Assembly (NCBI RefSeq): GCF_002101375.1
Contig: NZ_CP015207.1
Location: 982,001 to 1,046,000, forward strand
Reading direction: 5' to 3'
Length of the DNA: 64,000 nt
Source: Sporosarcina ureae
Lineage (GTDB): Bacteria > Bacillota > Bacilli > Bacillales_A > Planococcaceae
Below the pieces are notes generated by a model. It searched no databases. It saw only the letters and a list, made by a program, of their open reading frames with translations, and was not told where the DNA came from. Of the stretch, positions 5,706 to 21,214 are shown one piece after another; position 1 is the first letter of the stretch, and every line of letters begins with the position of its first letter. The translations under genes were made by a program, and so were the position numbers.

Positions 5706-7106
5706 ATGACAGCGACTACTGAAAATATCGTCCAGTCTTTGCAAGAAGTATTAACCGAAGAACAAGTGACCATTAATGACACCGTGCGTGAACTTCACGG
5801 AAAAGATGAGTCTTACCATACAATGAAATTACCAGATATTGTCGTGTTCCCTTCTTGTACGGAAGATGTCAGCAAGATTATGCGCCTATCGAAAGAACTA
5901 AACGTAGCCGTCATACCGTTCGGACTCGGCTCAAGCCTAGAAGGTAGTGTCATTCCGGATAGTGGTGGAATCACGATCGACTTTTCAAACATGAACGCGA
6001 TTCTAGACGTACGGGCAGAAGATTTTCTCGTTACGGTACAACCAGGCGTCACGCGTACTCAATTAAATAAAGAACTGAAGAAACATGGATTGTTTTTCTC
6101 TGTCGATCCAGGGGCAGATGCGACACTTGGCGGTATGGCGGCAACGAATGCTAGCGGCACGACTTCCGTCAAGTACGGTGTCATGCGCGATCAAGTTCGC
6201 GATCTCGAAGTGGTCTTGGCAGATGGTACGGTCATCCATACCGGCAACAAAGCGGCTAAATCTGCATCTGGACTTCATTTAAATGGATTATTTGTTGGCT
6301 CAGAAGGAACACTAGGTTGCTTCACGGAGCTGACATTACGCGTCTATGGTATTCCTGAATTCACAACAGCCGCTCGTGCATCGTTCCCTACCGTTCATGA
6401 TGCAGTGGAAGCAGTCGTTTCTATCTTGCAAGCAGGCATTCCGATTGCGCGGGTAGAATTGGTGGATGAGCCATCTATTAAACAAGCGAATATCTTCAGT
6501 GAAACGAATTATCAAGAAAAACCCACATTATTCTTGGAATTCCATGGCAATGAAGCAGGGTTACAGCAAGATGTCGAATTCACGAAAGAAATCGTTGCAG
6601 ATCATCAGTGCACGGATATCGAATTTGAAACAGACAACGCCGAACGCAATCGACTATGGGAAGCCCGTCACAATCTGGCCTATGCCTATATTCATGGAAA
6701 TCCCGGCAAAAAACTAATGGTCACTGACGTCTGTCTACCGATTTCAGAACTGGCTGACGCGGTCAATCATGCACGTGAAGTAGTCGAGTCACTTGAAATG
6801 CCGGGTGGAATTGTCGGCCATGTAGGCGATGGCAACTTCCACGTCTTGCTGATGATGAATATGAATGATCCAGCAGAACTGGCGAAAGCCGATGAACTAA
6901 ACGAAAAAATCGTTCGCTATGCACTGGAGCGTGGCGGTACTTGTACCGGAGAGCACGGCGTCGGAATCGGCAAACAGAAATACCAGCAAGAAGAACATGG
7001 CGCTGCACTTCTGGTCATGCAGAAAATCAAGCGAGCACTCGATCCGGATAACTTACTCAATCCAAACAAGATTTTCCATTTAGATTCTGAGGTGATGAAA
7101 CCATGA
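5706..7106 (+). CDS. FAD-linked oxidase, GlcD / D-lactate dehydrogenase type
   Basis: 466 residues from the ATG at 5706, which has AAGGAGAG 10 bases upstream; an in-frame TTG at 5682 lies before that site and is not favoured. The FAD-binding PCMH domain shows PFGLGSSLEGSVIP and GGMAATNASGTTSVKYG. The C-terminal FAD-oxidase domain shows GHVGDGNFH and GEHGVGIGKQKY, typical of glycolate oxidase subunit GlcD and D-lactate dehydrogenase (cytochrome). It should oxidise a 2-hydroxyacid to a 2-oxoacid and pass electrons to the respiratory chain. The stop overlaps the start of a transporter gene (ATGA), so the two are translationally coupled. No GlcE or GlcF partner is present. Confidence 0.88.
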   Translation: MTATTENIVQSLQEVLTEEQVTINDTVRELHGKDESYHTMKLPDIVVFPSCTEDVSKIMRLSKELNVAVIPFGLGSSLEGSVIPDSGGITIDFSNMNAILDVRAEDFLVTVQPGVTRTQLNKELKKHGLFFSVDPGADATLGGMAATNASGTTSVKYGVMRDQVRDLEVVLADGTVIHTGNKAAKSASGLHLNGLFVGSEGTLGCFTELTLRVYGIPEFTTAARASFPTVHDAVEAVVSILQAGIPIARVELVDEPSIKQANIFSETNYQEKPTLFLEFHGNEAGLQQDVEFTKEIVADHQCTDIEFETDNAERNRLWEARHNLAYAYIHGNPGKKLMVTDVCLPISELADAVNHAREVVESLEMPGGIVGHVGDGNFHVLLMMNMNDPAELAKADELNEKIVRYALERGGTCTGEHGVGIGKQKYQQEEHGAALLVMQKIKRALDPDNLLNPNKIFHLDSEVMKP

Positions 7107-8083
7107 AGACACTTGAAGCAATCGGCTCAATCGCTGGAAAGTACTTTGCATTTTGGGTCATTCTAGTCGCTGTGATTGCGTTCATGTTCCCGACTCCTTT
7201 TCTCGGACTAGGTGCATACATCACGATTTTACTCGGCGTTGTCATGTTCGGCATGGGACTGACGTTACGTGCGGTGGACTTCAAAATCATTTTGACCAAT
7301 CCGTTACCCGTGATCATTGGTGTAGCCGCTCAATTTATTGTCATGCCATTGGCTGCATTCGGACTTGCCTATTTATTGAAACTACCACCTGAACTAGCAG
7401 CCGGTCTTGTATTGCTTGGATCTGTTCCAGGAGGTACCGCTTCAAATGTCATGGTCTATTTAGCAAAAGGAAATCTCGCATTATCTGTTGCGATGACATC
7501 CCTCTCTACTCTATTAGCACCACTTATCACGCCGCTATTATTACTATTGTTAGCTGGACAGTGGCTACCGGTGGATGCGTTGTCGATGTTCAAGTCAATC
7601 GTACAAGTCATCATCATTCCCATTGCGTTAGGACTACTCATCCAACGATTCTTCCCAAGAGGAGTTGCGAAAAGTGTAACCGTCGTACCGATTATTTCAG
7701 TTGTTGCGATTCTCATCATTGTCGCTGCGGTTACTTCCGCAAACGCAGGCAACGTCGCAAGCTCAGGTCTAATCGTATTTATCGCCGTGTTCTTGCATAA
7801 CGGGATCGGATTACTTCTTGGGTATTTGATTGCACTGGGGCTTGGATTGAACGAAAACGACAGACGAGCCATTTCACTTGAAGTGGGCATGCAAAACTCC
7901 GGACTGGGCGTAGCGCTTGCGACTGCGCACTTCGGACCCCTTGCTGCACTTCCAAGTGTATGGGGTGCGATCTGGCATAATATCTCGGGTCCAATTCTTG
8001 CGACAATCTGGTCGAAGAAGCCAACGAAGGATATCGAGGAACCGGAAGTTTTGATTCAAGCAAAAGCAAAAGTCAATGTATAG
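7103..8083 (+). CDS. Bile acid:sodium symporter (BASS) family transporter
   Basis: 326 residues with about nine to ten hydrophobic helices. The segments GLVLLGSVPGGTASNVMVYLAKGN and ISLEVGMQNSGLGVALA match the crossover motifs of the BASS family (ASBT/YocS-like), which use Na+ to import organic acids. The start overlaps the stop of the GlcD-like gene by 4 bases. I infer that it imports the hydroxyacid oxidised by that enzyme, such as lactate, glycolate or another 2-hydroxyacid. The substrate cannot be read from the sequence. Confidence 0.87.
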   Translation: MKTLEAIGSIAGKYFAFWVILVAVIAFMFPTPFLGLGAYITILLGVVMFGMGLTLRAVDFKIILTNPLPVIIGVAAQFIVMPLAAFGLAYLLKLPPELAAGLVLLGSVPGGTASNVMVYLAKGNLALSVAMTSLSTLLAPLITPLLLLLLAGQWLPVDALSMFKSIVQVIIIPIALGLLIQRFFPRGVAKSVTVVPIISVVAILIIVAAVTSANAGNVASSGLIVFIAVFLHNGIGLLLGYLIALGLGLNENDRRAISLEVGMQNSGLGVALATAHFGPLAALPSVWGAIWHNISGPILATIWSKKPTKDIEEPEVLIQAKAKVNV

Positions 8084-8269: not shown

Positions 8270-9403
8270 ATGAGAAAATGGCTTGTTGCTTCTTTGGCTT
8301 TTGTCTGGATTATAGGTGGCGTGATTTTGTGGAGCGATTGGAATAATAGAGAGCAAACATTATCTGCCAAAGCCGATGTAATAGCACAAAAAAATGCAGT
8401 AGACGGTACATCTGAAAAAATGAATAAAGTAGAACCAGATCAAAAATTAGAAGAAACGATTATTCATACGGCAACAATCGGTATGGTTGGCGATATATTA
8501 TTACATAATCCAATTTACACGTATCCTCACTTCGATTTTGCATTCGAAGCGGTAAAAGAGAAGATGACCAGTATTGATTTTCTCTTGGCAAATCAGGAAT
8601 CTATGCCTGGCGGTGTGGAACTTGGTTTATCTACCTATCCAAAGTTCAACAGTCCAAAACATATACTCCCCGCTTTACAAAATGTTGGCGTCGATATGGT
8701 TTCATTCGCCAACAATCACACGTTCGACAAAGGGGAAAATGGTGTGCGCAAGGCGATTGAACATGCGCAACAATATGGCATGCAGTATGTAGGTGCTTAT
8801 GAATCTTTTAAAGACCGCAAGACTCAACGAATTGTCGAAGTGAACGGCATCAAAATCGGAGTGCTCGCCTATACATACGGTACAAATGTAGAGATAGATT
8901 TGCATGACAAAGAGTACTTGGTGAACTACATCGATCGTGATCGAATGGAAAATGAAATCCAACAGATGAAGCCAATGGTAGACGTGACGATCGTATCGCT
9001 GCATTGGGGTCCTGAGTATCATCTCGAAACGTCCGAAGATCAAGCAGAGCTCGCGCAATTCGTTTCGGATGCGGGTGCTGACGTGCTGTTCGGACATCAC
9101 CCACATGTTCTACAACGCTATGGAGAAGTCGGACATACCAAAGTGTTCTTCTCGCTCGGCAATTTCTATTCTGCCCAACCGTTCGATTATACGAACTTCG
9201 GCGGAATCGCCAGACTGTCTGTAACGAAAGAACAAACGGGTGGGCAAAAGACTGTCACTATCGAAGATCCACGCTTTTTCCCGACTGGCGTCATCAAAGA
9301 TCAAAATAAGCGCTTTAAAGTCGTACCACTTAACAAAGCCCATTCCACCATTCATTACACTGAAGAATGGGTGGAAAACCATGTCGGTGTACCGAAATGG
9401 TAA
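8270..9403 (+). CDS. CapA family protein (PGA_cap metallophosphatase-like)
   Basis: 377 residues: an N-terminal membrane anchor or signal (residues 5-22), a charged linker, then a CapA/PgsA domain from about residue 70. Diagnostic motifs are MVGDILLH, LANQES, ANNHTFDKG, SLHWGPEY and FGHHPHVLQ, which form a calcineurin-like metal site. Relatives take part in poly-gamma-glutamate capsule synthesis or export, but no pgsB or pgsC is nearby, so it is an orphan. It is probably exposed on the outer face of the membrane. Confidence 0.88.
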   Translation: MRKWLVASLAFVWIIGGVILWSDWNNREQTLSAKADVIAQKNAVDGTSEKMNKVEPDQKLEETIIHTATIGMVGDILLHNPIYTYPHFDFAFEAVKEKMTSIDFLLANQESMPGGVELGLSTYPKFNSPKHILPALQNVGVDMVSFANNHTFDKGENGVRKAIEHAQQYGMQYVGAYESFKDRKTQRIVEVNGIKIGVLAYTYGTNVEIDLHDKEYLVNYIDRDRMENEIQQMKPMVDVTIVSLHWGPEYHLETSEDQAELAQFVSDAGADVLFGHHPHVLQRYGEVGHTKVFFSLGNFYSAQPFDYTNFGGIARLSVTKEQTGGQKTVTIEDPRFFPTGVIKDQNKRFKVVPLNKAHSTIHYTEEWVENHVGVPKW

Positions 9404-9469: not shown

Positions 9470-10042
9470 TTATTTACTTAACACGGTCTTTACATCTTTT
9501 ATCAACAATTCATTCTCAGTTTCTGTTAGACCATCGTATCTTTTCACAATTTCACCATCAGGATTAATTAAATAAAAATAATAGCTATGCGCACGTTGAT
9601 CTAATGCTCCACTTTCCAATATAGAAAGGAATGTGTTTCTCGATAATTCCTGAATCGTTTTAAAATCATAACCTGTCAAAAAACTCATCGTACGGAGATC
9701 GGCTCCAAAATCTGCAGCATAGTTCCTTAATACTTCTGGTGTATCATTTTCGGGATCTATACCAAATGAAACAATACGAGGTTCCAAACCATCTTCCTTT
9801 AATTTTTCTTGAATACCGACCATATTAGCGGTCGTTCTTGGGCATACTGTGATGCAGTTGGTATAGGAGAAATAGGCAATCCACCAATCACCCTTTAAAT
9901 CCTTCAAGCCAAGCGGTTCGTTGTCTTGTGTAGTAAATTCAAAGTCCGGCATCGTTTGGGACATATTCGTTTCGATCTTATTATTGCAGCCGCTTAGTAT
10001 AAGAATCATGGTCAAGAAAATAACAGCAAATTTTACTTTCAT
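9470..10042 (-). CDS. SCO1/SenC family copper lipoprotein (copy 1)
   Basis: 190 residues from the ATG at 10042, which has GGGAGGA upstream; an in-frame upstream start at 10132 lacks a site. A lipoprotein signal ends at LSGC (Cys19). The thioredoxin-like SCO domain has Cys63-x3-Cys67 (CITVC) and His152, the expected copper ligands. SCO proteins deliver Cu to the CuA site of cytochrome oxidase or act as thiol reductases on the outer membrane face. This copy is divergent from the subunit-3/GMC pair that begins at 10402. A near-identical paralogue at 18012 is linked to a second such pair. Confidence 0.9.
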   Translation of the reverse strand: MKVKFAVIFLTMILILSGCNNKIETNMSQTMPDFEFTTQDNEPLGLKDLKGDWWIAYFSYTNCITVCPRTTANMVGIQEKLKEDGLEPRIVSFGIDPENDTPEVLRNYAADFGADLRTMSFLTGYDFKTIQELSRNTFLSILESGALDQRAHSYYFYLINPDGEIVKRYDGLTETENELLIKDVKTVLSK

Positions 10043-10401
10043 AAATATCCTCCCTCTTTTGTATGTCGCAAAAAATAAAGTGATTCTTCTGCAACGGCCT
10101 ACTGTGTAGTATTGCACGTTTACTACAATCATGTTAAGTCTTAAATAATTGTATCATCTTTATTCCAACTTGACGCACGTGATCCATTTCACTCGAATCA
10201 TAATAGATAATGGCACTGTATTACAGTCTACTACTTCTTCACTTACTAAATCAAAAAACTTAAAAGAAATATGATAAAAGAATATATTGTTGTCTAAATA
10301 GGATAAATAAGGGCAGGATAAATAAGGATAACGTATGGAAATGACTACATGTTCTATGTACTAATCAATGAAAAAATTTTTATGTATATGGAGGGGTTAA
10401 A
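10043..10401. other. Divergent intergenic region with a short direct repeat
   Basis: About 360 bases between SCO copy 1 and the subunit-3 gene. It holds two exact copies of AGGATAAATAAGG (10300-10312 and 10315-10327), 15 bases apart start to start, which could be a regulator site or part of the promoter. No other gene was found here. Confidence 0.45.
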
Positions 10402-11205
10402 ATGGCGGATCAACAACCACCCAAAGACGTAAATGGAAAACCACAACACGAGCAAGACTTGGGACGGAGAAATTTCTTGAAAAATACCGGACTCGTTGCT
10501 GGTGGACTCGTCGGAGGATCTATTTTCGGGGGTCTACTCACAGGCGGTTTGGATAAGAAAAATGACAACATAGCGAAAAATGATAGCAATAAAGGTATCG
10601 AAGTAACGCAAGCACGTCAATTCTTCACGCGTCATCAAGATTTTAAAGTATTAAATGCAGCAACAGAACAAATTTTACCTGAGGACGAACTCGGTCCTGG
10701 CGCCATTAAGTTAGGTGTCCCTTATTATATTGACAAACAATTAGCAGGACGCTGGGGTGTCAACGCATACGACTATCGACAGGCTCCCTATGCAATTGAT
10801 TTGAAAGCAGCCGATCAAACGGCAGGGCCTGGCGGAGAACAATCGATTTTGGATCGTGGCATGATCTTCTTGCTAGGTCTTCGTAAAATGGACGAAGAAA
10901 GTCAAAAGCGTTTCGAAGTTACTTTTGACAAAGCAACCGAAGAGCAACAAATAGAAATCATGACGGACTTCGAGGCAAACAAAGTGAAAATGAAAGGCGT
11001 AAAAGCTTCAGAGTATTTCATTTTGTTAAAACAAGCGACATTAGAAGGCGCTTATTGTGATCCATTGTACGGCGGCAATATCAATATGGAAGGATGGAAA
11101 ATGAAAGAATTTCCGGGCGCTGTGGCTTCTTACGCTAACTATATTGAATCAGATGATTTTGCAAAGCTGGATCCCGTCAGTCTGCGAGATTACCAAGGGC
11201 ATTAA
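10402..11205 (+). CDS. Gluconate 2-dehydrogenase subunit 3 family protein, Tat-exported (copy 1)
   Basis: 267 residues. A twin-arginine signal (GRRNFLKN, residues 21-28, followed by a Gly-rich hydrophobic stretch) directs folded export. The mature part (AATEQILPEDELGPGAIKLGVPYYIDKQLAG; CDPLYGGN) matches the small subunit of membrane-bound gluconate and FAD-glucose dehydrogenases. This subunit acts as a hitch-hiker chaperone that carries the signal-less GMC subunit through Tat. The GMC gene follows 26 bases downstream. The usual third subunit, a cytochrome c, is absent. Confidence 0.9.
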   Translation: MADQQPPKDVNGKPQHEQDLGRRNFLKNTGLVAGGLVGGSIFGGLLTGGLDKKNDNIAKNDSNKGIEVTQARQFFTRHQDFKVLNAATEQILPEDELGPGAIKLGVPYYIDKQLAGRWGVNAYDYRQAPYAIDLKAADQTAGPGGEQSILDRGMIFLLGLRKMDEESQKRFEVTFDKATEEQQIEIMTDFEANKVKMKGVKASEYFILLKQATLEGAYCDPLYGGNINMEGWKMKEFPGAVASYANYIESDDFAKLDPVSLRDYQGH

Positions 11206-11231
11206 AATAGAAACCGTAAGGAGGATATAAA

Positions 11232-12986
11232 ATGGTAAAACAACTTAAAAAGGTAGATGCGGTTATCGTAGGTTCAGGATGGGTCGGTGGAATTGCAGCA
11301 GCGGAACTGACGAAAGCAGGATATAATGTAGTGATATTAGAACGAGGGAAAAACAAAAAGCATGAAGACTATATCGGTACGAAAGATGAGTTACGCTATT
11401 CTAAGCGATATGATCTCATGCAAGAATTGAATAAGGATACAATTACTTCACGTAACTCCATGAGTAAGGAAGCAATACCCGTTCGGAATAATATGAACGC
11501 ACGTCTTGGAAATCATACTGGAGGCGCAGGTGTTCACTGGAACGGGATAGCTTTCCGCTGGTTGCCATATGATTTCGAAATTTATAGTAAGACTGTAGAG
11601 CGCTATGGTAAAGATAAAATCCCTAAAGAATCGACCATGCAGGATTGGGGGATTACATATGATGAGCTCGAACCGTATTATGATCAATATGAAAAAACAG
11701 CTGCCATCTCAGGCGAAGAAAACCCAATTGGTCCTCCACGGTCTGATAAGTATCCTAATCCTCCTATGAAGGAAACGCCGAATATTCGTCTATTCACAAA
11801 AGCAACGAAAGCTCTTGGTTATCATCCCTATCGTATCCCTTCAGCTAATGCTTCACAAACATACACCAACCCTGATGGTGAAACGATCAATGGTTGCGTA
11901 TACTGTGCATTTTGTGAAGAGTATGGTTGTGACTTCGGAGCGAAAGCGGATCCGATCGGTACGGTACTCAAGACGGCACATAAAACAGGTAAGATGGAAA
12001 TTCGTAATGATGCGTTCGTGAATCGAGTAAGCCACGATGGAAAGAAAGCGAACGGATTAATCTATACCGATACCACGACTGGTGAAGAATTCGAACAACT
12101 AGCAGATATCGTAGTACTTGCAGGTTTCGTCTTTACGAATACGAAGTTGCTGTTACACTCTAAAATCGGGCAACCCTACGATCCGAAAACAGGACAAGGC
12201 ATCATCGGCAAGAACTTCACAGGCCACTTCAACAACTTGTCAACGTATATTGGCGCTCGTGGATTCTTCGAAGACAAGAAGTTCAATAATTTCATGGGTG
12301 CTGGCGGGATGGGTGCGACGATCGATGATTTCAGTGGGGACAATGAAGATCACACGAACCTAGACTTCTTGCATGGCTATGAAGTGCACTACAGTCAGCT
12401 TGGTTCACGTCCTATTGCCAATAACGCAGTTCCATATGATACACCTGGTTGGGGTAAAGAATTTAAAAAGAATTCAATAAAATATTATAATCGTAATCTA
12501 TTCATCACACCACAAAGTGGCTTCTTGCCGAACAAGAATACGTATATGGATTTGGACCCAATATATAAAGATGCACTCGGTAATCCACTTCTTCGTGTCA
12601 CCGTTGAATATGCAAAACAGGACATCGCACGTGCGAAAGCAGGCGTCGCACGTTGTGAAGAGATCATGAAAGAAATGGGCGCAGACAAAATGAACGTCGA
12701 TGTGGTGAAAGACGATACTGTATTTGACCATAAATTCTATACGGATCACTTCTTCGGTGGTGCCATTATGGGAGCTTCTCCTAAAAACTCCGCAGTCAAC
12801 ACCTACTCACAAATGTGGGATATGGAAAACCTATTCGTAGTAGGCGGGTCCTCATTCCCGCATAACAGTAATTACAACCCTACCGTTACGATTGGCGCAT
12901 TCGCTTATCGTGCAGCCGAAGGAATGATTAAATTCTTAAAAGAAGGCGGCAATGTAGCTGTAAAACCACTTGAAAAGAACGCTTAA
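11232..12986 (+). CDS. GMC-family FAD-dependent sugar/polyol dehydrogenase (copy 1)
   Basis: 584 residues with AAGGAGGAT upstream. The FAD-binding motif GSGWVG is at 14-19, GAGVHWNG is near residue 100, and the C-terminal GMC segments include TDHFFGG and NPTVTIGAFAYRAAEGM. Four cysteines (222, 225, 228, 233; NGCVYCAFC then GCDFG) sit where bacterial FAD-glucose dehydrogenase alpha subunits carry a 3Fe-4S cluster, so a cluster is plausible. It has no signal of its own and probably rides with subunit 3. The substrate is unknown: gluconate, glucose or another polyol are candidates. Confidence 0.9.
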   Translation: MVKQLKKVDAVIVGSGWVGGIAAAELTKAGYNVVILERGKNKKHEDYIGTKDELRYSKRYDLMQELNKDTITSRNSMSKEAIPVRNNMNARLGNHTGGAGVHWNGIAFRWLPYDFEIYSKTVERYGKDKIPKESTMQDWGITYDELEPYYDQYEKTAAISGEENPIGPPRSDKYPNPPMKETPNIRLFTKATKALGYHPYRIPSANASQTYTNPDGETINGCVYCAFCEEYGCDFGAKADPIGTVLKTAHKTGKMEIRNDAFVNRVSHDGKKANGLIYTDTTTGEEFEQLADIVVLAGFVFTNTKLLLHSKIGQPYDPKTGQGIIGKNFTGHFNNLSTYIGARGFFEDKKFNNFMGAGGMGATIDDFSGDNEDHTNLDFLHGYEVHYSQLGSRPIANNAVPYDTPGWGKEFKKNSIKYYNRNLFITPQSGFLPNKNTYMDLDPIYKDALGNPLLRVTVEYAKQDIARAKAGVARCEEIMKEMGADKMNVDVVKDDTVFDHKFYTDHFFGGAIMGASPKNSAVNTYSQMWDMENLFVVGGSSFPHNSNYNPTVTIGAFAYRAAEGMIKFLKEGGNVAVKPLEKNA

Positions 12987-13000
12987 TTTTACTAACTACA

Positions 13001-13046
13001 TACGCCATCACCATGTCTGAATTGACAAGGTGATGGCGTATTTTTT
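13001..13046 (+). terminator. Intrinsic terminator after GMC copy 1
   Basis: TACGCCATCACC pairs with GGTGATGGCGTA and is followed by TTTTTTG. Confidence 0.85.
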
Positions 13047-13075
13047 GTGTAAGAATACATCATAACTCTATGAAG

Positions 13076-13555
13076 TCACTTAATATGCAATATAACTTCT
13101 TCTTTCAAACTGGATAAAATCGGTGAACGTTCAACTGCAGTAGCCGCGATTTCAGCCAGTTGTCCTTTATTCGTAGTGGACTCAGCCGATAAAACGATCA
13201 TCGGTTTCATAATGCCGCTATTGCCGCTTTGAATTCCTAGAAACGGCGCTTTATCGCATACGCCAGTGAAAACGATTTCCGCTCGATCTACAGTCACTCC
13301 TTGATTATACGCTTCCAAATGGAATGTAACACCGAAACTAGTAGTTGCTGCAGCGATTAATAATTCAATCGGCATGACTTGTTTTTCTCCTGGCTTCGCA
13401 ATGCCTTCCAGATCAATTTCCTGTAGATCTTTCGTTTCAAGTGACATCATTTCCCCTACTACATACTGGCTTGTCCCTTGCCATTCACTAATTGCGAGTG
13501 ACGGATCTTGCTCTATCAATTTCTTCATTATATTCATAATTTTTGTTGTGCTCAT
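13076..13555 (-). CDS. OsmC-like protein lacking both redox cysteines
   Basis: 159 residues with the OsmC/Ohr fold pattern: MPIELLIAAATTSFG aligns with the family's PxELLxAAxxxC motif, and AVERSPIL aligns with the AxxxCPV motif. Both catalytic cysteines are replaced by Ser (Ser73 and Ser144). The only Cys is at 100, in a different place. True OsmC/Ohr proteins reduce organic peroxides through those two cysteines, so this protein should not do so and may bind a ligand instead. It is transcribed alone. Confidence 0.75.
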   Translation of the reverse strand: MSTTKIMNIMKKLIEQDPSLAISEWQGTSQYVVGEMMSLETKDLQEIDLEGIAKPGEKQVMPIELLIAAATTSFGVTFHLEAYNQGVTVDRAEIVFTGVCDKAPFLGIQSGNSGIMKPMIVLSAESTTNKGQLAEIAATAVERSPILSSLKEEVILHIK

Positions 13556-13700
13556 ATTTTAATGCCTCCAGATTGTTCTCATGGTGTCTATTATACATGT
13601 ATAACATTGATTTGCTAATAAGGTATGCATTGCGCTTTATCGATTGTCTAGTGATAGGATAACAAATTTCTAGTACTAACAAGAAGTATAGAACTTAAAC

Positions 13701-13802
13701 TTATGACGTGTTGTCTGTTACTACATAATCTATGTATGTGATGATGAGCCTCATCAAGACTGTAGCACATCTCGCTTGATAAACTGATCCATCAAATGTC
13801 AT
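13701..13802 (-). CDS. Candidate 33-residue small protein
   Basis: An ATG at 13802 follows a near-perfect ribosome binding site (AAAGGAGG, 8 bases upstream) and opens a 33-codon frame ending at TAA. The predicted product begins MTFDGSVYQARCATV and contains a short hydrophobic stretch (VLMRLIITYIDYVV). I recognise no family. The strong site in an otherwise empty 550-base region is the main argument that it is real. Confidence 0.42.
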   Translation of the reverse strand: MTFDGSVYQARCATVLMRLIITYIDYVVTDNTS

Positions 13803-13854
13803 AGCTGACTCCTCCTTTGTACACTATATAGAGTCAGAAAGAGAAAAGAATACA

Positions 13855-13881
13855 GCGTGTGGAAATATTTTTTCCACACGC
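13855..13881. repeat. Perfect 11-bp inverted repeat
   Basis: GCGTGTGGAAA / TTTCCACACGC with a 5-base loop. A T-rich run follows 8 bases later on the plus strand, so it may be a weak terminator. It also lies 5' of the small ORF at 13802 and could be its regulatory element. The rest of 13882-14048 shows nothing recognisable. Confidence 0.5.
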
Positions 13882-14048
13882 ACTATATCTTTTTTTGTAG
13901 TGTGTTTAAGTTCTTAGGTTATTGCTAGTAGCAAAATCGTCTCTTGGAGTGGAACAAAACGTTCGCTTGAAGAGATTGGTTTACTCTTCTCGTCATACCT
14001 ACTTGAACAGTCGCTGTTTCAATTTCTATAGTTAATAATTTTATCAAT

Positions 14049-14090
14049 AAAAACAGTAGACAAATTTCATTAAAATTTTGTCTACCGTTT
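14049..14090 (-). terminator. Intrinsic terminator of helical hypothetical gene
   Basis: On the minus strand, AAACGGTAGACAAA pairs with TTTGTCTACTGTTT and is followed by TTATTG. It lies just after the stop of the gene at 14116. Confidence 0.72.
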
Positions 14091-14115
14091 GAATATTTCT
14101 TTATTTTTTTATAAT

Positions 14116-14508
14116 TTATTTTTGGAACATGCTTTCAATCAATTCTTCCATATCTTCCGCAGCATGCAGTTCTTTCGACTGAAGGGCGTCGAGCTCACCG
14201 CTCTCCATCGCTTCCACGCTGAACTTCTCCGTCTTCTCTTCTACACAATGGACGAATACCGTATAGGCTTCTTTTAGTTCATTGCCTTCTGTTTCAAAGG
14301 CATTTGGAACTTCCAACGCATTCATGTCTGCGAGGATCTGCTTGAACTCTTCCACTTTAACTAGCCATTGTTCTTTCATTGCGGGTATATCCAGCTCTTG
14401 TTTCGAAATGAATTGTTCGGAAATGCCTTCATACTCTTCTGACGCTATGATTAAGCGTTCGTGTAATCCAATAATTTTCTGTAAATAATCTTTTCTACTG
14501 AGTGCCAT
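14116..14508 (-). CDS. Hypothetical helical protein
   Basis: 130 residues, very acidic (many Glu) and predicted to be almost entirely helical with coiled-coil character (LHERLIIASEEYEGISEQFISKQ; LKEAYTVFVHCVEEKTEKF). No signal or membrane segment is seen. It is monocistronic with its own terminator, and its 5' leader region contains the two hairpin repeats at 14690 and 14820. The family is not recognised. Confidence 0.7.
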   Translation of the reverse strand: MALSRKDYLQKIIGLHERLIIASEEYEGISEQFISKQELDIPAMKEQWLVKVEEFKQILADMNALEVPNAFETEGNELKEAYTVFVHCVEEKTEKFSVEAMESGELDALQSKELHAAEDMEELIESMFQK

Positions 14509-14689
14509 AGTATCATCTCCTAGTATGAGTATACTCGTTTAGTATTTCATCATACATCTCCCAATGCAAAGAGGAAAGTCTAGACACTTGTTCGGTACTT
14601 TTCAACATTGAAATGCTTGTCTTTTGACCAACGATAACGAATTCTGTTTCTGCATCACTAGTCTTCTATTTCACCCATTATGTATACAC

Positions 14690-14754
14690 ACCAGACCGGC
14701 TCTATATAGCGAGCGGTTGGTTGACGGCTTATGCAAAACAGCTGCCGGTCTGGT
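14690..14754. repeat. Hairpin repeat, copy A
   Basis: Ends form a perfect 11-bp stem (ACCAGACCGGC / GCCGGTCTGGT). The 43-base interior contains GCGAGCGGTTGGTTGACGGC, shared exactly with copy B at 14820. Compared with B, stem positions 6 and 8 change with compensation (A-T to G-C; C-G to T-A), so the fold is under constraint. It could be a structured RNA, a paired terminator or a palindromic mobile repeat. Confidence 0.7.
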
Positions 14755-14819
14755 ATGTTTTCTATTTCTTGCTTCGATAGTGCTTCCCATTGTTCTTGCT
14801 CATGTTACATATAATGAAA

Positions 14820-14883
14820 ACCAGGCTGGCTCTATAAGCGAGCGGTTGGTTGACGGCTTGTGCTGAACAGGTGCCAACCTGGT
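14820..14883. repeat. Hairpin repeat, copy B
   Basis: Same element as copy A, 130 bases downstream in the same orientation. The stem ACCAGGCTGGC / GCCAACCTGGT has one mismatch, and the interior is nearly the same. On the minus strand the second arm is followed by TTTTC, so this copy might also end the sigma/anti-sigma transcript. Confidence 0.7.
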
Positions 14884-14928
14884 TTGCGTGAAAATGTATG
14901 CATCACCTCCTTTACAGTGTATAAGACA

Positions 14929-16005
14929 TTATTCCTCCACTATCCATTGCCCGGAGCTTGCATCCCTTCCCATAGTGAACACTTGCTCCACGACGCCTTC
15001 ACGTCCATATTGATAACGAATTTCTACTTTATCATCGGCAATCGGAATGGCTCGACGATACGCTGCCTCCAGGAAAAGCTCTCCAATTCGGCTTGATTGT
15101 GCAAATACCGAAGACTCAGGCAACTTATCCAATCCTGTAAGCTGGTCGTATAAATATAAATCAAAGTACTGCTCGGCTGTATAGTCGCTTTTGAGCTGAT
15201 CTGTCAGATAATCTATATAGATAGAGTCGGTTTTTTCTTCGGTTGCCACACCAATCAGTTTGCCGTAAATCTTGTGTATAGGTGTGATGGTCGCTCCTTG
15301 CACAGTGTCTTTTGCCGGGAAATGATTTAATAATAAGTATTCCCGGGCATTTAACAACTGGTCATAGCCACCCGCAATCGTTACATTTTGCTCCTTATAT
15401 CGATCCATTAGTTCGGATGATACCTCGTTACCGTTGACTTTTAGTTTGCCGTTTTGCAGTACAACTCGATCTCCAGGAACCGCAACGACTTCATAATAGA
15501 CACCCGCATACGTCGGTAAGTGGCTATTCGTATTCGTAAATGTGCGTACCACATCTCCCGGATCATAGACGGAGGCATCATACAAGTCTGCCTTACGTTC
15601 TATCACTGGATGATACGTATCGGGGCTCCACTGTAGTGAAAAGGAATCGTCATCAACATATAATAGACCGTCTACTTTCTTTACTACAGGTAATGAAGAA
15701 AATTCTTCGTAATCTATAGTGGATAGTTGATCTTTCTTTTGTAAAGCAGAAATTAACGCCATGTCGTCAAGCGGATCATACGGCGTTCCTGGACCTTGAT
15801 CAGAAGAGAATTGATTATCTGACACTAGATTAAACACTAGCAACAAAGCCACTACCGGTAGTGCTGCGGTGACCAGCAGCGCTTGCCAAGAAAACCGTCT
15901 CCTTTGCGAAGGTTGAAGGGTTTCATGTACCCGCTGTTTGATTCGTCGTTCCTGTTCCGTCGTATCTCCCATCATCTGGTCCAGTTTTTGTTTAAAATCA
16001 TTCAT
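14929..16005 (-). CDS. Probable anti-sigma factor with signal-peptidase-I-like extracytoplasmic domain
   Basis: 358 residues: a charged N-terminal cytoplasmic segment, one membrane helix (about 41-62), and a large outer domain. The stretch YYEVVAVPGDRVVLQNGKLKVNG (about residues 170-192) resembles the peptidase S26 (signal peptidase I) fold. No SMxPT catalytic serine motif precedes DPGDVV, so proteolysis is unlikely. The start overlaps the end of the ECF sigma gene by 8 bases, the usual arrangement for a sigma factor and its membrane anti-sigma. The anti-sigma role is inferred from topology and context. Confidence 0.72.
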   Translation of the reverse strand: MNDFKQKLDQMMGDTTEQERRIKQRVHETLQPSQRRRFSWQALLVTAALPVVALLLVFNLVSDNQFSSDQGPGTPYDPLDDMALISALQKKDQLSTIDYEEFSSLPVVKKVDGLLYVDDDSFSLQWSPDTYHPVIERKADLYDASVYDPGDVVRTFTNTNSHLPTYAGVYYEVVAVPGDRVVLQNGKLKVNGNEVSSELMDRYKEQNVTIAGGYDQLLNAREYLLLNHFPAKDTVQGATITPIHKIYGKLIGVATEEKTDSIYIDYLTDQLKSDYTAEQYFDLYLYDQLTGLDKLPESSVFAQSSRIGELFLEAAYRRAIPIADDKVEIRYQYGREGVVEQVFTMGRDASSGQWIVEE

Positions 16006-16498
16006 AGGTTTCTACCTCCTCTTTCACAAAGAATTCCTTAAGTTGCAACTTGGCTCTTCGTAATCTAGTCTTGACAGTATTTTCATTGAGCCCAAGAAAT
16101 TCCGCGATCTCCGCAATTGATTGTTCGTCATAATAATATAGCAGTAATGGCTCGCGGTATTTCAAAGGCAGCTGGAATAAATGCTTTTCAAGTGAAGCCA
16201 GTTGTTCTTTCTCCAATAGTTGTTGTTCCGAGCTTTTGGAAGATACAAAAATCGTCTCGAACACCACATCTTTTTTATGCTTCCAGGAGCGCAAATAATC
16301 TTTTGCACGATTAGCAGTCATTTTGGTTAAGTACGTTTTAATAGACGCTTCATTACGGAACTGGTCACTCTTCTGGAAATACGTAACGAAGACTTCTTGT
16401 ACGACATCTTCCGCAGTTGACCAGTTTTTCACGTATAAATAAGCGATACGCACTAAATAACGCGAATGCTCATTCATGATTTGATCCATTTCATTCAT
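15998..16498 (-). CDS. ECF-type RNA polymerase sigma factor
   Basis: 166 residues. Region 2 (RIAYLYVKNWSTAEDVVQEVF) and region 4 (LPLKYREPLLLYYYDEQSIAEIAEFLGLNENTVKTRLRRAKLQLK) are complete, and the length is typical of group 4 sigma factors (SigW/SigX/SigV-like). It lies 19 bases after a polysaccharide deacetylase gene and overlaps the probable anti-sigma gene, so the three form one operon. The start lacks a strong ribosome binding site, which suggests translational coupling to the upstream gene. It probably controls a cell-envelope response and its own operon. Confidence 0.92.
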   Translation of the reverse strand: MNEMDQIMNEHSRYLVRIAYLYVKNWSTAEDVVQEVFVTYFQKSDQFRNEASIKTYLTKMTANRAKDYLRSWKHKKDVVFETIFVSSKSSEQQLLEKEQLASLEKHLFQLPLKYREPLLLYYYDEQSIAEIAEFLGLNENTVKTRLRRAKLQLKEFFVKEEVETYE

Positions 16499-16517
16499 TT
16501 GGGCTAGTCACTCTCTT

Positions 16518-17807
16518 CTATGGCCATCTCATGTCTCCGTCAACATACGTTGCAAAATCCTTAAATGACCTTTTTTCTGTCATGCCAAAGCGGTTCACTT
16601 CATAATTGGATCGATCCATATTGGCATATCCTTCGACTGTTGTGTAGCCGATCAGTAATCCTACTTCTTTCGCTGCCGCAATGAACTCTTCATTATATTG
16701 TCCATAGGGATAAGCGATGGAAAGCGCTGAAGGCACGTGTTGTAAATTTTTCTGTAAGTCTTCAATGATTTCTTCTTCTGTATGTTCGAATACTAAACCT
16801 GCACCACTTTCTCTACCTAGTTCATGCAATGCACATGTGTGGGCTTCGAACTGAAATACATCTTTCATTTCGTTTAGGTCTTCCACATTCAAATACTTCA
16901 GTAGGCCTCCCCCGTCAAATGCCGGACCGCCTTTTTCTCTATCCATACGAGATGAAATAATATGTTGAGACGAAGTAAAGCCATATTGTTTCAAGATAGG
17001 ATAGGCGTATTCTTTAGATGACAATAAACCATCATCAAATGTAATAATCAACGCTTTCGCTGGCACAACGAGTCGGCCTTCCAAATAATCATATAATTGT
17101 TGTGAAGTCAAAGTCGTAAATTGCTCATCTGCCAAATATGCCATCTGCTTTTCAAAGCTTTCAAGTGAAATCGTGCTGATCTCCGTTTTCATCTCTTTAC
17201 GGGGGAGCACTTGGTGATACAGCAGTACCGGTAAGCCTTCATCCATTTCTACTGAAGGTTTATGGATATAACCAGCGCGCTCACCCACTTTGATGAGATA
17301 CCAGTCTTTATCTTCCTCTATAACAGGATAGCGATAGCCTTTTCTTAATTGGATGAGAACATCACTTTCAAGATTCGCTTCCGTATAGACAGGTGTTGGT
17401 TGAGCCGTTTTTACAGCACCCAATCGTTCTGTATGTAAAGGAGTTTTCATCACATGCTTTTCTACTTTTGCCTGACCTTTACGAATGAAGGCTGGCATCT
17501 TACCTACTCGAATTTCGTAATATTCCTCATCTTCTCCTACGAGCGCAACCGGTTGATTGGCTTGCAGTTCACCAATTTGCTTTAAGTTCTCTTGCTTCAT
17601 AAAAATCGGTTGAGTGTTTGTCAGCGTCAATACCTGATCAAATTCTTTTTCTGTAATGAATGGTTTACTTTGTATCGTTTCTGCAAAAGCTGTCGCTGAT
17701 TGCTCATGGAACAATGGTACTTCATTCAAATTCCACTTGGCTTCATTTCCCATTATAAATAACAGTAAGCTCGCAAGTAACAGCAGACAACTATATATTT
17801 TCTTCAT
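16518..17807 (-). CDS. Exported polysaccharide deacetylase with SH3-like repeats
   Basis: 429 residues. An N-terminal signal or anchor (residues 4-20) is followed by two SH3b-like segments (about 75-185). The NodB domain begins at GLPVLLYHQVLPR (191). Metal and catalytic motifs are present: TFDDG (256-260) and HTCALH (323-328, the H-x4-H pair), then YPYGQYNEEF. It should deacetylate a cell-wall polymer such as peptidoglycan or PNAG. As the first gene of the sigma/anti-sigma operon it links the operon to envelope maintenance. Confidence 0.9.
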   Translation of the reverse strand: MKKIYSCLLLLASLLLFIMGNEAKWNLNEVPLFHEQSATAFAETIQSKPFITEKEFDQVLTLTNTQPIFMKQENLKQIGELQANQPVALVGEDEEYYEIRVGKMPAFIRKGQAKVEKHVMKTPLHTERLGAVKTAQPTPVYTEANLESDVLIQLRKGYRYPVIEEDKDWYLIKVGERAGYIHKPSVEMDEGLPVLLYHQVLPRKEMKTEISTISLESFEKQMAYLADEQFTTLTSQQLYDYLEGRLVVPAKALIITFDDGLLSSKEYAYPILKQYGFTSSQHIISSRMDREKGGPAFDGGGLLKYLNVEDLNEMKDVFQFEAHTCALHELGRESGAGLVFEHTEEEIIEDLQKNLQHVPSALSIAYPYGQYNEEFIAAAKEVGLLIGYTTVEGYANMDRSNYEVNRFGMTEKRSFKDFATYVDGDMRWP

Positions 17808-17950
17808 GTGAATCCCCCTATTATCATTTGCGCACCGTATAGACGGAGGATTCCTGAAAAAGTTTCAAAAATATTTTAGTAAGTTTTTTGACGATGCTTG
17901 TTGTTCAGAACCAATGTGACTTTCCAAAGCCCTTCTATTTCTTCACGTGA

Positions 17951-17988
17951 AAAAGCACTCTTTCGCTCTTAGTAGAACGAAAGACTGC
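17951..17988 (-). terminator. Intrinsic terminator of SCO copy 2 operon
   Basis: On the minus strand GCAGTCTTTCGTTCT pairs, with one mismatch, with AGAGCGAAAGAGTGC and is followed by TTTTTC. Confidence 0.75.
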
Positions 17989-18011
17989 CTTCTGATTGCA
18001 TACACGGAACT

Positions 18012-18590
18012 CTACTTCCCTAAAACTTTCTTCACATCCGCCACCAGCAACTCATTATCTGTATCGCTCATACCGTTATACTGCTTCACAATCTCTCCGT
18101 CAGGATTAATCAAATAAAAGAAAAAGCTATGTGATCGCTGGTCAAGCGCTCCTTTTTCCAGCATGGCTTTAAACGTAGTAACCGATAAATCTCGTATTTC
18201 TTCAAAATCATAACCAGTTAAAAACGTCATCGTCTGTAGATCAGCACCATAGTCTTTTGCATATTCTCGTAAAACTTCCGGTGTATCATTTTCCGGATCG
18301 ATGCTGAATGAAATGATAGGAGGTGTTAAACCTTCACTTTTTAATGCTTCCTGAATACCAACCATATTAGCAGTGGTCCTCGGGCAAACGGTCGTGCAAT
18401 GTGTATAGGAGAAATAAGAAATCCACCAATCACCAGTCAAGTCAGCCAAGCCTAGTTTATTTTCATCTTGCGTAGTGTATTCAAAATCTGGTATTTTCTC
18501 TGACCTATTCGTTTCGATGGTATGATTGCAGGCACTCAGTAAAAGGACGGCTGCCAGTAGGAGTAGGACGGCTCGTATGTTCATAGGCAT
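18012..18590 (-). CDS. SCO1/SenC family copper lipoprotein (copy 2)
   Basis: 192 residues; lipobox LSAC (Cys21); thioredoxin-like fold with Cys65-x3-Cys69 (CTTVC) and His154. It is closely similar to the SCO at 9470, for example in PDFEYTTQD, DWWISYFSYT, CPRTTANMVGIQE and TFLTGYDFEEI. Here it lies 63 bases downstream of GMC copy 2 on the same strand, so it probably belongs to the subunit 3-GMC-SCO operon. That is stronger evidence than copy 1 for a functional link between this SCO and the dehydrogenase. Confidence 0.9.
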   Translation of the reverse strand: MPMNIRAVLLLLAAVLLLSACNHTIETNRSEKIPDFEYTTQDENKLGLADLTGDWWISYFSYTHCTTVCPRTTANMVGIQEALKSEGLTPPIISFSIDPENDTPEVLREYAKDYGADLQTMTFLTGYDFEEIRDLSVTTFKAMLEKGALDQRSHSFFFYLINPDGEIVKQYNGMSDTDNELLVADVKKVLGK

Positions 18591-18653
18591 ATTACCTCGC
18601 TTTAGTATGTATGAAAGAAAGGAGAGAGGTAATCCCTCTCTCCTTTTGTAGTA

Positions 18654-20414
18654 TTATGCTTTTGCTGTTTCCTTTTCTTTAACTAACTGGCCTCCGCCAG
18701 TCTCTAAAAACTTGATCATACCTTCTGCGGCACGGTAAGCTAGTGCGCCAACTGTCGCTGTTGGATTGGAACTACCCATAAGTGGGAATGAAGAAGCCCC
18801 CACTACGAATAAATTGTCCATGTCCCATACTTGTGAATAATTGTTTACAGCAGACGTTTCGGGACGATCCCCCATGACTACACCGCCACCTGTATGGTCA
18901 GATAATGACGACTTATCAAACTCTGTTTCCTCTGTAATTTCAGGAATCGTAATATGGTCTGCGCCCATTTGTTCCAGTAACTCTTTCGCTCTTTGATGCG
19001 CATATCGTACAATGTTTCGGTCTTGATCATGGAACTTGCTCGTGACGCGCAGTAATGGATCACCGAACATATCTTTGTACGTCGGATCCAAGTCCATATA
19101 GTTTTCTCGCCAAGCAAGGGCACCGTTTTGTTGCTGAACATCTATACGACGGTTCGCATAGAAAATAGACTTGTCTTTAAATTCTTTCCCCCAAGATGGA
19201 ACGTCTGCAGGAACATGGTTATTCGTAATCGGTCGATCTCCTCTTTGAGATGTCCGCAAACAGAAACCATGCAAGAAATCGAGTTTCGTATGATCAAGTT
19301 GCTCCACATTGAAATCATCCAATGTCACGCCGAGCGCACCGGTACCTGCATAGCGATTGAATTTCTTCTCATCAAAGAATCCACGGACACGCGTATGCGT
19401 CAAGTTGCGCTGGTGAGCAGTCAAGTGGCTACCGATCACGCCTGTTCCATCTTTCGGATTGTATGGCTTGCCAATTTCAGATAACAGCATGAGGCGAGTA
19501 TTCGTGAAGGTAAATCCGGCAACCACGACGATATCTGCCGGTTGAATGAACTCTTCTCCTGTTTCTGTGTCTACATATTTAATACCAACTGCTTTGCCAT
19601 TTTCATGTACAATCCGAACCGCATACGAATTATTACGCAACTCATAATTACCACTTTTATGTGCTGTAGCTAAAACCGTAACAATCGGATCTGCTTTCGC
19701 TCCGAAGTCACAACCGAACGCTTCACAAAATGCACAGTACACACATCCGTTAATCGTCTCACCGTCAGGGTTAGTATACGTCTCAGATATGTTAGCAGAA
19801 GGAATACGATACGGATGATAGCCCAAATCTTTTGCCGCTTTCGTAAAGGTACGAATGATATCCGTTTCTTTCATCGGCGGTGTCGGGTATTCATCCGAAC
19901 GCTGACCCGGTCGCAATGGATCTGGTTCACCTGAGATGCCGGCAGTTTTTTCAAACTGATCGTAATACTTCTCCAGCTCATCATATGTAATACCCCAATC
20001 TTGGAGTTGCATATCTTTCGGGATGATTTTTTCTCCATATTTTTCTACCGTTTTCGTATGGAATTCGAAATCCGTTGGAAGCCAACGATATACCATGCCG
20101 TTCCAGTGAACACCTGAACCGCCAGTAGCCGTACCATTGATCGCATTTGTATCGTTACTGCGGTTTGGTGTCGCCGTTTCGTCTAGCGTATTACGAATCG
20201 TCAACGTTTCTTTATTCAATTCTTGGAACATGAGCTTCCGCACATCGTAGCGAAGTTCATCCTTCGCGCCAACGAAATCTTCTCGTTTTTGCGCTTTCCC
20301 TCTTTCTAAACCTACTACTTTATATCCTTTTTTCGTTAATTCAGCTGCCGCAATACCGCCTGCCCAGCCTGAACCGACGATGACTGCATCTACTTTATCT
20401 AATGTTTTTACCAT
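18654..20414 (-). CDS. GMC-family FAD-dependent sugar/polyol dehydrogenase (copy 2)
   Basis: 586 residues, paralogous along its whole length to the protein at 11232. The FAD motif GSGWAG is at 14-19. The four cysteines are conserved (224, 227, 230, 235). Near the C-terminus the first copy has FPHNSNYNPT while this one has FPLMGSSNPT, a difference close to the active site that may change substrate choice. SDHTGGG supplies the conserved His. It is exported, if at all, with the Tat partner encoded 23 bases upstream. Confidence 0.9.
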   Translation of the reverse strand: MVKTLDKVDAVIVGSGWAGGIAAAELTKKGYKVVGLERGKAQKREDFVGAKDELRYDVRKLMFQELNKETLTIRNTLDETATPNRSNDTNAINGTATGGSGVHWNGMVYRWLPTDFEFHTKTVEKYGEKIIPKDMQLQDWGITYDELEKYYDQFEKTAGISGEPDPLRPGQRSDEYPTPPMKETDIIRTFTKAAKDLGYHPYRIPSANISETYTNPDGETINGCVYCAFCEAFGCDFGAKADPIVTVLATAHKSGNYELRNNSYAVRIVHENGKAVGIKYVDTETGEEFIQPADIVVVAGFTFTNTRLMLLSEIGKPYNPKDGTGVIGSHLTAHQRNLTHTRVRGFFDEKKFNRYAGTGALGVTLDDFNVEQLDHTKLDFLHGFCLRTSQRGDRPITNNHVPADVPSWGKEFKDKSIFYANRRIDVQQQNGALAWRENYMDLDPTYKDMFGDPLLRVTSKFHDQDRNIVRYAHQRAKELLEQMGADHITIPEITEETEFDKSSLSDHTGGGVVMGDRPETSAVNNYSQVWDMDNLFVVGASSFPLMGSSNPTATVGALAYRAAEGMIKFLETGGGQLVKEKETAKA

Positions 20415-20437
20415 TCTTTTCTCCCCTTTCTTGTAGT

Positions 20438-21214
20438 TTATTTAGGTTGGTAATCTGTAAGGCTCACTTGATCCATTTTCACGAACTTATCTTCTTCTAT
20501 CATATGGGCATACGATGCGATGGCGCCTGGATATTCTTTCATTTTCCAGCCTTTCATATCTCGATTGCCTCCGTACAATGGATCACAATACGCGCCTTCA
20601 AGCGTAGTAGAACGCAACAAATTAAAGAATCCTTTCGAACTAATACCTTTGATTTCCACTTTGTCATCTGCAAAATCCGTCATAATTTCTAATTGCTGAT
20701 CTTCCGTCGCTTTAACAAAATTAGTATCAAATCGTTTTAGACTCTCGACATCCATTGTTCGTAATCCATTAATGAAAATCTGGCCACGATCGAGACTAGA
20801 GTCTGCAGCCGAAGCTTTAGAACCTATAAAAGGACCTTGTCTGTAATCGCCTACATTGGATCCATAAGGACCTGCCAACTGTTTGTCAATATAATACGGA
20901 ACGCCTAATTCTATCGCTCCAGGACCGTTATGATCTTCAGGGAAAATCCGCTCCACTGCCTGCTCCAAAATAGCGAAATCGGCAATACGAGTGAAGTACA
21001 TACGCGCTTCTTCATAGCGCTTCTCTTTCACGCTTTCCTTAGTCGCAGTGGAAGTCGAATTATTATTTTTCGATCGACTGCTAAACAGACCTCCAAGCAA
21101 TGCACCACCGGCTACACCTCCGACAGCAATTCCTGTGTTCTTGACGAAACTGCGGCGTCCCGGATCAGAAACTTCGTTCGTATTCTTCGGGTTATTCGAA
21201 TTATTATCAGCCAT
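20438..21214 (-). CDS. Gluconate 2-dehydrogenase subunit 3 family protein, Tat-exported (copy 2)
   Basis: 258 residues with a twin-arginine signal (GRRSFVKNTG, Arg20-Arg21) and a mature domain like copy 1 (IFPEDHNGPGAIELGVPYYIDKQLAGPYG; CDPLYGGN). First gene of the minus-strand operon 21214 to 18012. The extreme N-terminus is Asn-rich and differs from copy 1, while the mature parts stay close. Confidence 0.9.
   Translation of the reverse strand: MADNNSNNPKNTNEVSDPGRRSFVKNTGIAVGGVAGGALLGGLFSSRSKNNNSTSTATKESVKEKRYEEARMYFTRIADFAILEQAVERIFPEDHNGPGAIELGVPYYIDKQLAGPYGSNVGDYRQGPFIGSKASAADSSLDRGQIFINGLRTMDVESLKRFDTNFVKATEDQQLEIMTDFADDKVEIKGISSKGFFNLLRSTTLEGAYCDPLYGGNRDMKGWKMKEYPGAIASYAHMIEEDKFVKMDQVSLTDYQPK

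Follow-up and report, generated by a model that had tools for sequence, protein, structure and literature searches.

Phylogeny and active-site residues show that nearly all of the SCO lipoproteins encoded beside one class of flavoprotein dehydrogenase, a pair of gluconate 2-dehydrogenase subunit 3 (S3) and GMC flavoprotein, form a branch of the SCO family that appears specialized for these S3-GMC dehydrogenases. The reading we favor, at a probability of roughly 0.45, is that S3 and GMC would make up a Tat-exported FAD/Fe-S dehydrogenase that hands its electrons to a housekeeping acceptor, with the SCO as its dedicated redox or maturation partner. We hold more tentatively the proposal that this branch has left oxidase assembly and now acts as a redox partner, either maturase or electron acceptor, that replaces the cytochrome c subunit. 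To our knowledge, nearly all that is known of SCO proteins concerns their delivery of copper to respiratory oxidases, and it has long been asked whether the family serves other functions.

Two gene sets with different histories

The window, a stretch of 64,000 nucleotides from the 3.35 Mb chromosome of a soil bacterium of the Sporosarcina ureae group (relatives: S. ureae DSM 2281 and Sporosarcina sp. P32b), contains two sets of these genes. Set 1 (9470-12986) consists of an SCO gene on the minus strand and of S3 and GMC genes on the plus strand; set 2 (21214-18012) has S3, GMC, and SCO in this order, all on the minus strand. The first-pass annotation had assigned each set an S3, a GMC with four cysteines, and an SCO lipoprotein, and both the coordinates and the Pfam matches agree with it (SCO1-SenC, 2e-28 and 1e-28; Gluconate_2-dh3, 4e-27 and 5e-30; GMC_oxred_C, 1e-19 and 3e-20 for the two sets). 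Protein identity between the sets is 61% for GMC, 54% for S3, and about 67-71% for SCO.

In set 1, the lipoprotein SCO1 (9470..10042, minus strand; ~190 aa) has the lipobox LSGC, the signature YTNCITVCPRTT, and the His ligand. Translation most likely begins at 10042, which gives 190 aa, right after a strong Shine-Dalgarno sequence; 10132 only marks the longest open reading frame. An intergenic region (10043..10401) common to the divergent SCO1 and S3-1 genes provides a Shine-Dalgarno sequence for both. S3-1 (10402..11205, plus strand), a Tat-targeted member of the gluconate 2-dehydrogenase subunit 3 family (PF13618), carries the twin-arginine motif RRNFLK (10465..10482) and, further on, Cys219 (11056..11058) in the context EGAY-C-DPLYGGN. 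GMC1 (11232..12986, plus strand), related to the large subunits of fructose and FAD-glucose dehydrogenases and without a signal peptide of its own, has a four-cysteine motif, C222-x2-C225-x2-C228-x4-C233 (11895..11930), presumed to be an Fe-S site. The neighbors of set 1 encode a PGA_cap family protein (8270-9403), a bile-acid-symporter family (PanS-like) transporter (7103-8083), and an OsmC-like protein (13076-13555), and have no evident tie to the dehydrogenase.

Set 2, entirely on the minus strand, begins with S3-2 (20438..21214), a Tat-targeted protein of the same family, with the twin-arginine motif RRSFVK (21140..21157) and Cys210 (20585..20587), again in the context EGAY-C-DPLYGGN. The second GMC flavoprotein, GMC2 (18654..20414), has its cysteine motif, C224-x2-C227-x2-C230-x4-C235, at 19710..19745. 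Then comes a terminator- or attenuator-like hairpin (18622..18640), followed by the lipoprotein SCO2 (18012..18590), with the lipobox LSAC, the signature YTHCTTVCPRTT, and the ligands C65, C69, and H154. Both SCO proteins thus display the CxxxC and His ligands and the lipoprotein anchor that define the family; lipoboxes and twin-arginine motifs alike were read from the sequence. Tat export had been proposed for S3, and the motifs GRRNFLK and GRRSFVK, which are confined to S3, point the same way: both GMC N-termini start directly with the FAD-binding Rossmann fold.

In view of the trees, we dropped the idea that sets 1 and 2 are one duplicated three-gene cassette. The SCO of set 1 is the sister of that of set 2, and orthologues of the set-1 GMC at nine loci of other Sporosarcina have no SCO, which together mark the set-1 SCO as a later copy and show that an SCO of the set-2 type was apparently copied beside GMC1 within the S. 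ureae group. The earlier idea that the link had survived rearrangement must therefore be given up, as the copy arrived beside a GMC lineage that elsewhere does without SCO. SCO1 has also outlasted its neighbor. In P32b (G094), a large internal deletion has left 143 aa of GMC1 (L130, 7448-7879), with S3-1 and SCO1 intact; in a second genome, G103, S3-1 and GMC1 are gone and SCO1 persists, and set 2 is still present in both. This weakens an exclusive bond between SCO1 and GMC1.

Phylogeny, signature, and spread of the linked SCOs

We built a maximum-likelihood tree of 103 SCO sequences, 29 of them GMC-linked. Twenty-seven of the 29 fall into one clade (99/94), the other two lie beside it, and the sole unlinked member of the clade is SCO1 of G103, the genome without S3-1 and GMC1. 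The clade goes back to essentially a single origin and seems to have been transferred between families. Its members also differ at the active site. Position 62, three residues before Cys65, is Tyr in 30/30 sequences (the 29 linked plus SCO1 of G103) versus 1/73 others, where Phe prevails (72/73); position 72, the third residue past the second Cys, carries Thr in 27/30 versus 1/73 others, where Met is found in 70/73, with ancestry ignored in both counts. The signature of the linked SCOs is thus YTxCxxxC(PxT), replacing FTxCxxxC(PxM), and the copper ligands Cys65, Cys69, and His154 are kept in all of them. The closest characterized relative, Bacillus SCO/YpmQ (BsSCO), is likewise a lipoprotein with a thioredoxin fold that binds copper through CxxxC and a His (its solved structure is matched at E = 4e-38), but it has the FTxCxxxC(PxM) form, whereas the proteins described here are linked to dehydrogenase genes and have YTxCxxxC(PxT). 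SCO1 and SCO2 evolve under purifying selection (dN/dS 0.08-0.12). Distances between SCOs correlate with those between their GMCs (r 0.71; 0/5000 permutations as high), a correlation to which shared ancestry contributes, and SCO diverges faster than GMC, e.g., 64% versus 90% identity.

The linkage is recurrent, but it is a minority condition. The host genome has six S3-GMC pairs and an SCO neighbor only at the two of the window (0/4 elsewhere); with four SCOs, six pairs, and 3.35 Mb, rough arithmetic gives ~0.05 chance neighbors, against two seen. In a partial sample of the same family (121 genomes; 137 GMC places in 69 genomes), 9/137 places are SCO-linked among the hits listed, all in Sporosarcina. 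A second family, also sampled in part (159 genomes, including Oceanobacillus indicireducens and a Pseudogracilibacillus MAG), yielded 15/113 linked GMC places among the hits listed, and all 15 loci were confirmed; one genome of the survey, G648, has eight GMCs, three of them SCO-linked. The ‘constant’ linkage of the first-pass annotation is therefore contradicted, as four of the six host pairs and the great majority of places in both families have no SCO. Across loci, the linkage recurs in four arrangements, with SCO in line after or before the dehydrogenase genes, convergent with them, or divergent from them, and SCO-linked GMCs occupy several separate places in the GMC tree, which indicates that SCO was repeatedly gained or lost beside GMC. 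By these comparisons, the association of SCO with S3-GMC goes beyond chance. No paper tying SCO to GMC or subunit 3 was found in a search that mostly lay outside the subscription literature, which is weak evidence of novelty.

The dehydrogenase and its electron acceptor

The best solved-structure matches of GMC1 and GMC2 are the large subunits of fructose and FAD-glucose dehydrogenases. Both proteins contain the catalytic His and the NPT motif, and thus the His/Asn pair of these enzymes. The four cysteines, C-x2-C-x2-C-x4-C, are invariant in 14/14 aligned relatives, so the conservation ascribed to them earlier holds; the spacing differs from that of fructose dehydrogenase (CC-x4-C-x3-C). In Burkholderia cepacia glucose dehydrogenase, three of the four Cys are ligands of a 3Fe-4S cluster, and the remaining one is joined to the small subunit by a disulfide directly beside the cluster (PMC6719666). 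From this homology, and from the roles of the B. cepacia cysteines, the GMC subunit likely holds an Fe-S cluster. Like the dehydrogenases of B. cepacia (FAD-glucose) and Gluconobacter japonicus (fructose), the window sets combine a GMC, with a Cys cluster suited to a surface Fe-S center, and a small exported partner; unlike them, they encode no multi-heme cytochrome c subunit, and the small subunit matches no solved structure by sequence or fold. A fold search with a predicted S3 model (mean pLDDT only 66.5) gave no PDB match below E = 2, and an S3 profile run against PDB sequences returned signal-peptide noise only.

A Cys just before the conserved DPLYGGN of S3 is shared by the S. ureae-group sets and the BP05/E16_8 lineage, and nearly all other S3 proteins have Ser or Ala; Cys219 of S3-1 is missing from the SCO-less set-1 orthologues, the BP05/E16_8 lineage excepted. 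A disulfide between this Cys and GMC, close to the cluster, is possible, and the residue occurs in 13/29 SCO-linked versus 1/42 unlinked S3, a count that ignores shared ancestry. As a general reason for SCO, however, it was rejected. Many linked sets do not have the Cys and BP05/E16_8 has it with no clade SCO, so a subunit disulfide cannot be the general SCO target; the residue is a lead at the Sporosarcina level only. A comparison of GMC residues found none that cleanly marks SCO linkage, the best difference being 0.54.

In a mostly SCO-linked clade of GMCs (eight loci), the catalytic His has given way to Glu, and those members that were aligned show QQT in place of NPT. The genes are intact, and the chemistry of this clade may differ from that of the usual GMC enzymes. 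Separately, a Bacillales MAG (L042, 7214-15852) has at least four S3 genes in a tandem array, together with three full GMC genes.

The gene arrangement resembles that of the gluconate 2-dehydrogenases of Pantoea and Rhizobium (PF13618), which share the S3-GMC pair, the Tat signal on S3, and a GMC identity of 40-42%. In these relatives, a larger cytochrome c gene directly follows GMC, whereas no cytochrome c subunit is co-encoded at either window set. As stated in the first pass, no CxxCH protein adjoins either set, and no cytochrome c adjoins any of the six host S3-GMC pairs. The missing cytochrome is nonetheless not peculiar to these sets. Thermus and the haloarchaeon Halorussus also have two-gene S3-GMC pairs with no cytochrome gene at the locus, although no SCO was seen in their loci. 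The gluconate dehydrogenase of Campylobacter jejuni, Cj0414/Cj0415, is likewise a two-gene pair for which no cytochrome gene is known at the locus. Deinococcus has the order S3-GMC-tatA-cyt c, with a small cytochrome c in the slot that holds SCO in the linked Bacillota. Elsewhere in the host chromosome lie genes for small cytochromes c (a lipoprotein of 114 aa and a membrane-anchored protein of 131 aa), unlinked to the sets, and small cytochromes c are present in 20/20 SCO-linked genomes. The simplest acceptor would be such a housekeeping cytochrome c or menaquinone.

Genes of the Tat pathway often accompany the pair. A Pfam-confirmed tatA lies within 2.6 kb of 29/107 GMC loci, usually ~100 bp downstream of GMC, and the orders seen include S3-GMC-tatA-SCO, SCO-S3-GMC-tatA, and S3-GMC-SCO divergent from tatA-tatC. 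tatA is embedded in many S3-GMC operons, another pair of the host genome (L029) among them, which suggests dedicated Tat components.

A possible role for the linked SCO

The functional tie between SCO and the dehydrogenase proposed in the first pass stands in part: the clade, its active-site signature, the four gene orders, and the purifying selection favor it, but the linkage is not constant and the SCO of set 1 came late. In our preferred reading, S3 with its Tat signal would carry the folded GMC out of the cell, as the family architecture and the tatA genes of many homologous operons suggest, and the exported GMC would oxidize an alcohol or sugar-type substrate outside. Electrons would pass from FAD through the four-Cys Fe-S cluster to a housekeeping acceptor from outside the locus, the likeliest candidates being menaquinone and a small c-type cytochrome bound to the membrane. 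SCO would then be a dedicated thiol/copper redox partner of the exported enzyme, a sub-stoichiometric helper and not a structural subunit. It might, for instance, control the redox state of cysteines at the S3-GMC interface and about the surface Fe-S cluster, or assist electron exit.

Expression signals are consistent with a helper. SCO is divergent in set 1 and in line with the operon in set 2, as first described, with the caveat that the hairpin separates GMC2 from SCO2. Hairpins of different sequence lie between GMC and SCO in the window and at eight further loci, i.e., most of the in-line loci tested, with intergenic fold energies of about -20 to -36 kcal/mol where present; three loci with a short GMC-SCO gap have none. 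This suggests that the hairpin lowers SCO expression relative to GMC: by ending part of the transcripts, it would leave less SCO, as would be expected of a helper more than of a subunit. Against such a partner role, most S3-GMC pairs have no SCO linked to them, SCO1 has survived the loss of GMC1 (although set 2 persists in those genomes), and SCO diverges faster than GMC.

The best-surviving alternative, which we consider rather unlikely, makes the linked SCO an ordinary CuA assembly factor for the caa3 oxidase, co-located for co-regulation with a dehydrogenase whose electrons exit via cytochrome c and caa3. Bacillus YpmQ is required for caa3 (PMC9145763), and the retention of all copper ligands and the persistence of SCO1 without GMC1 fit such a factor. 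So does the finding that 19/20 linked genomes encode a COX2 that includes a cytochrome c domain; among these 20, no linked SCO was found in a genome without a CuA oxidase, the sole miss being an 80% complete MAG. Yet most linked genomes also carry separate unlinked SCOs, so that the oxidase's need for SCO is already satisfied. Moreover, the linked SCOs adjoin GMC and not oxidase genes, and a distinct clade with its own signature is unexpected for a plain duplicate.

It is improbable, in our judgment, that SCO is the dehydrogenase's own electron acceptor, replacing the cytochrome c subunit, with its copper or thiol pair relaying electrons between the Fe-S cluster and the respiratory chain. The slot after GMC (and tatA) does hold cytochrome c in Deinococcus, Rhizobium, and Pantoea and SCO in the linked Bacillota, and the kept copper ligands are compatible with the proposal, but that slot can also be empty, as neither gene accompanies most of the pairs in Bacillota, haloarchaea, and Thermus. 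Some loci have SCO upstream or on the other strand, and the hairpin before most in-line SCOs is unsuited to a stoichiometric subunit. Least probable of all is that a mobile S3-GMC segment picked up SCO a single time and has since carried it along with no functional tie: its essentially single origin, apparent movement between families, and patchy linkage would fit, but the linkage has persisted across several GMC lineages and all four gene orders, duplication of SCO created a new link next to GMC1, the signature is conserved, and selection is purifying.

An SCO branch that sits beside one dehydrogenase class, with active-site residues of its own, makes the question of other SCO jobs testable. 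It also bears on how electrons leave the cytochrome-less two-subunit GMC dehydrogenases of Gram-positive bacteria, and is relevant to the biosensor enzymes of this class.
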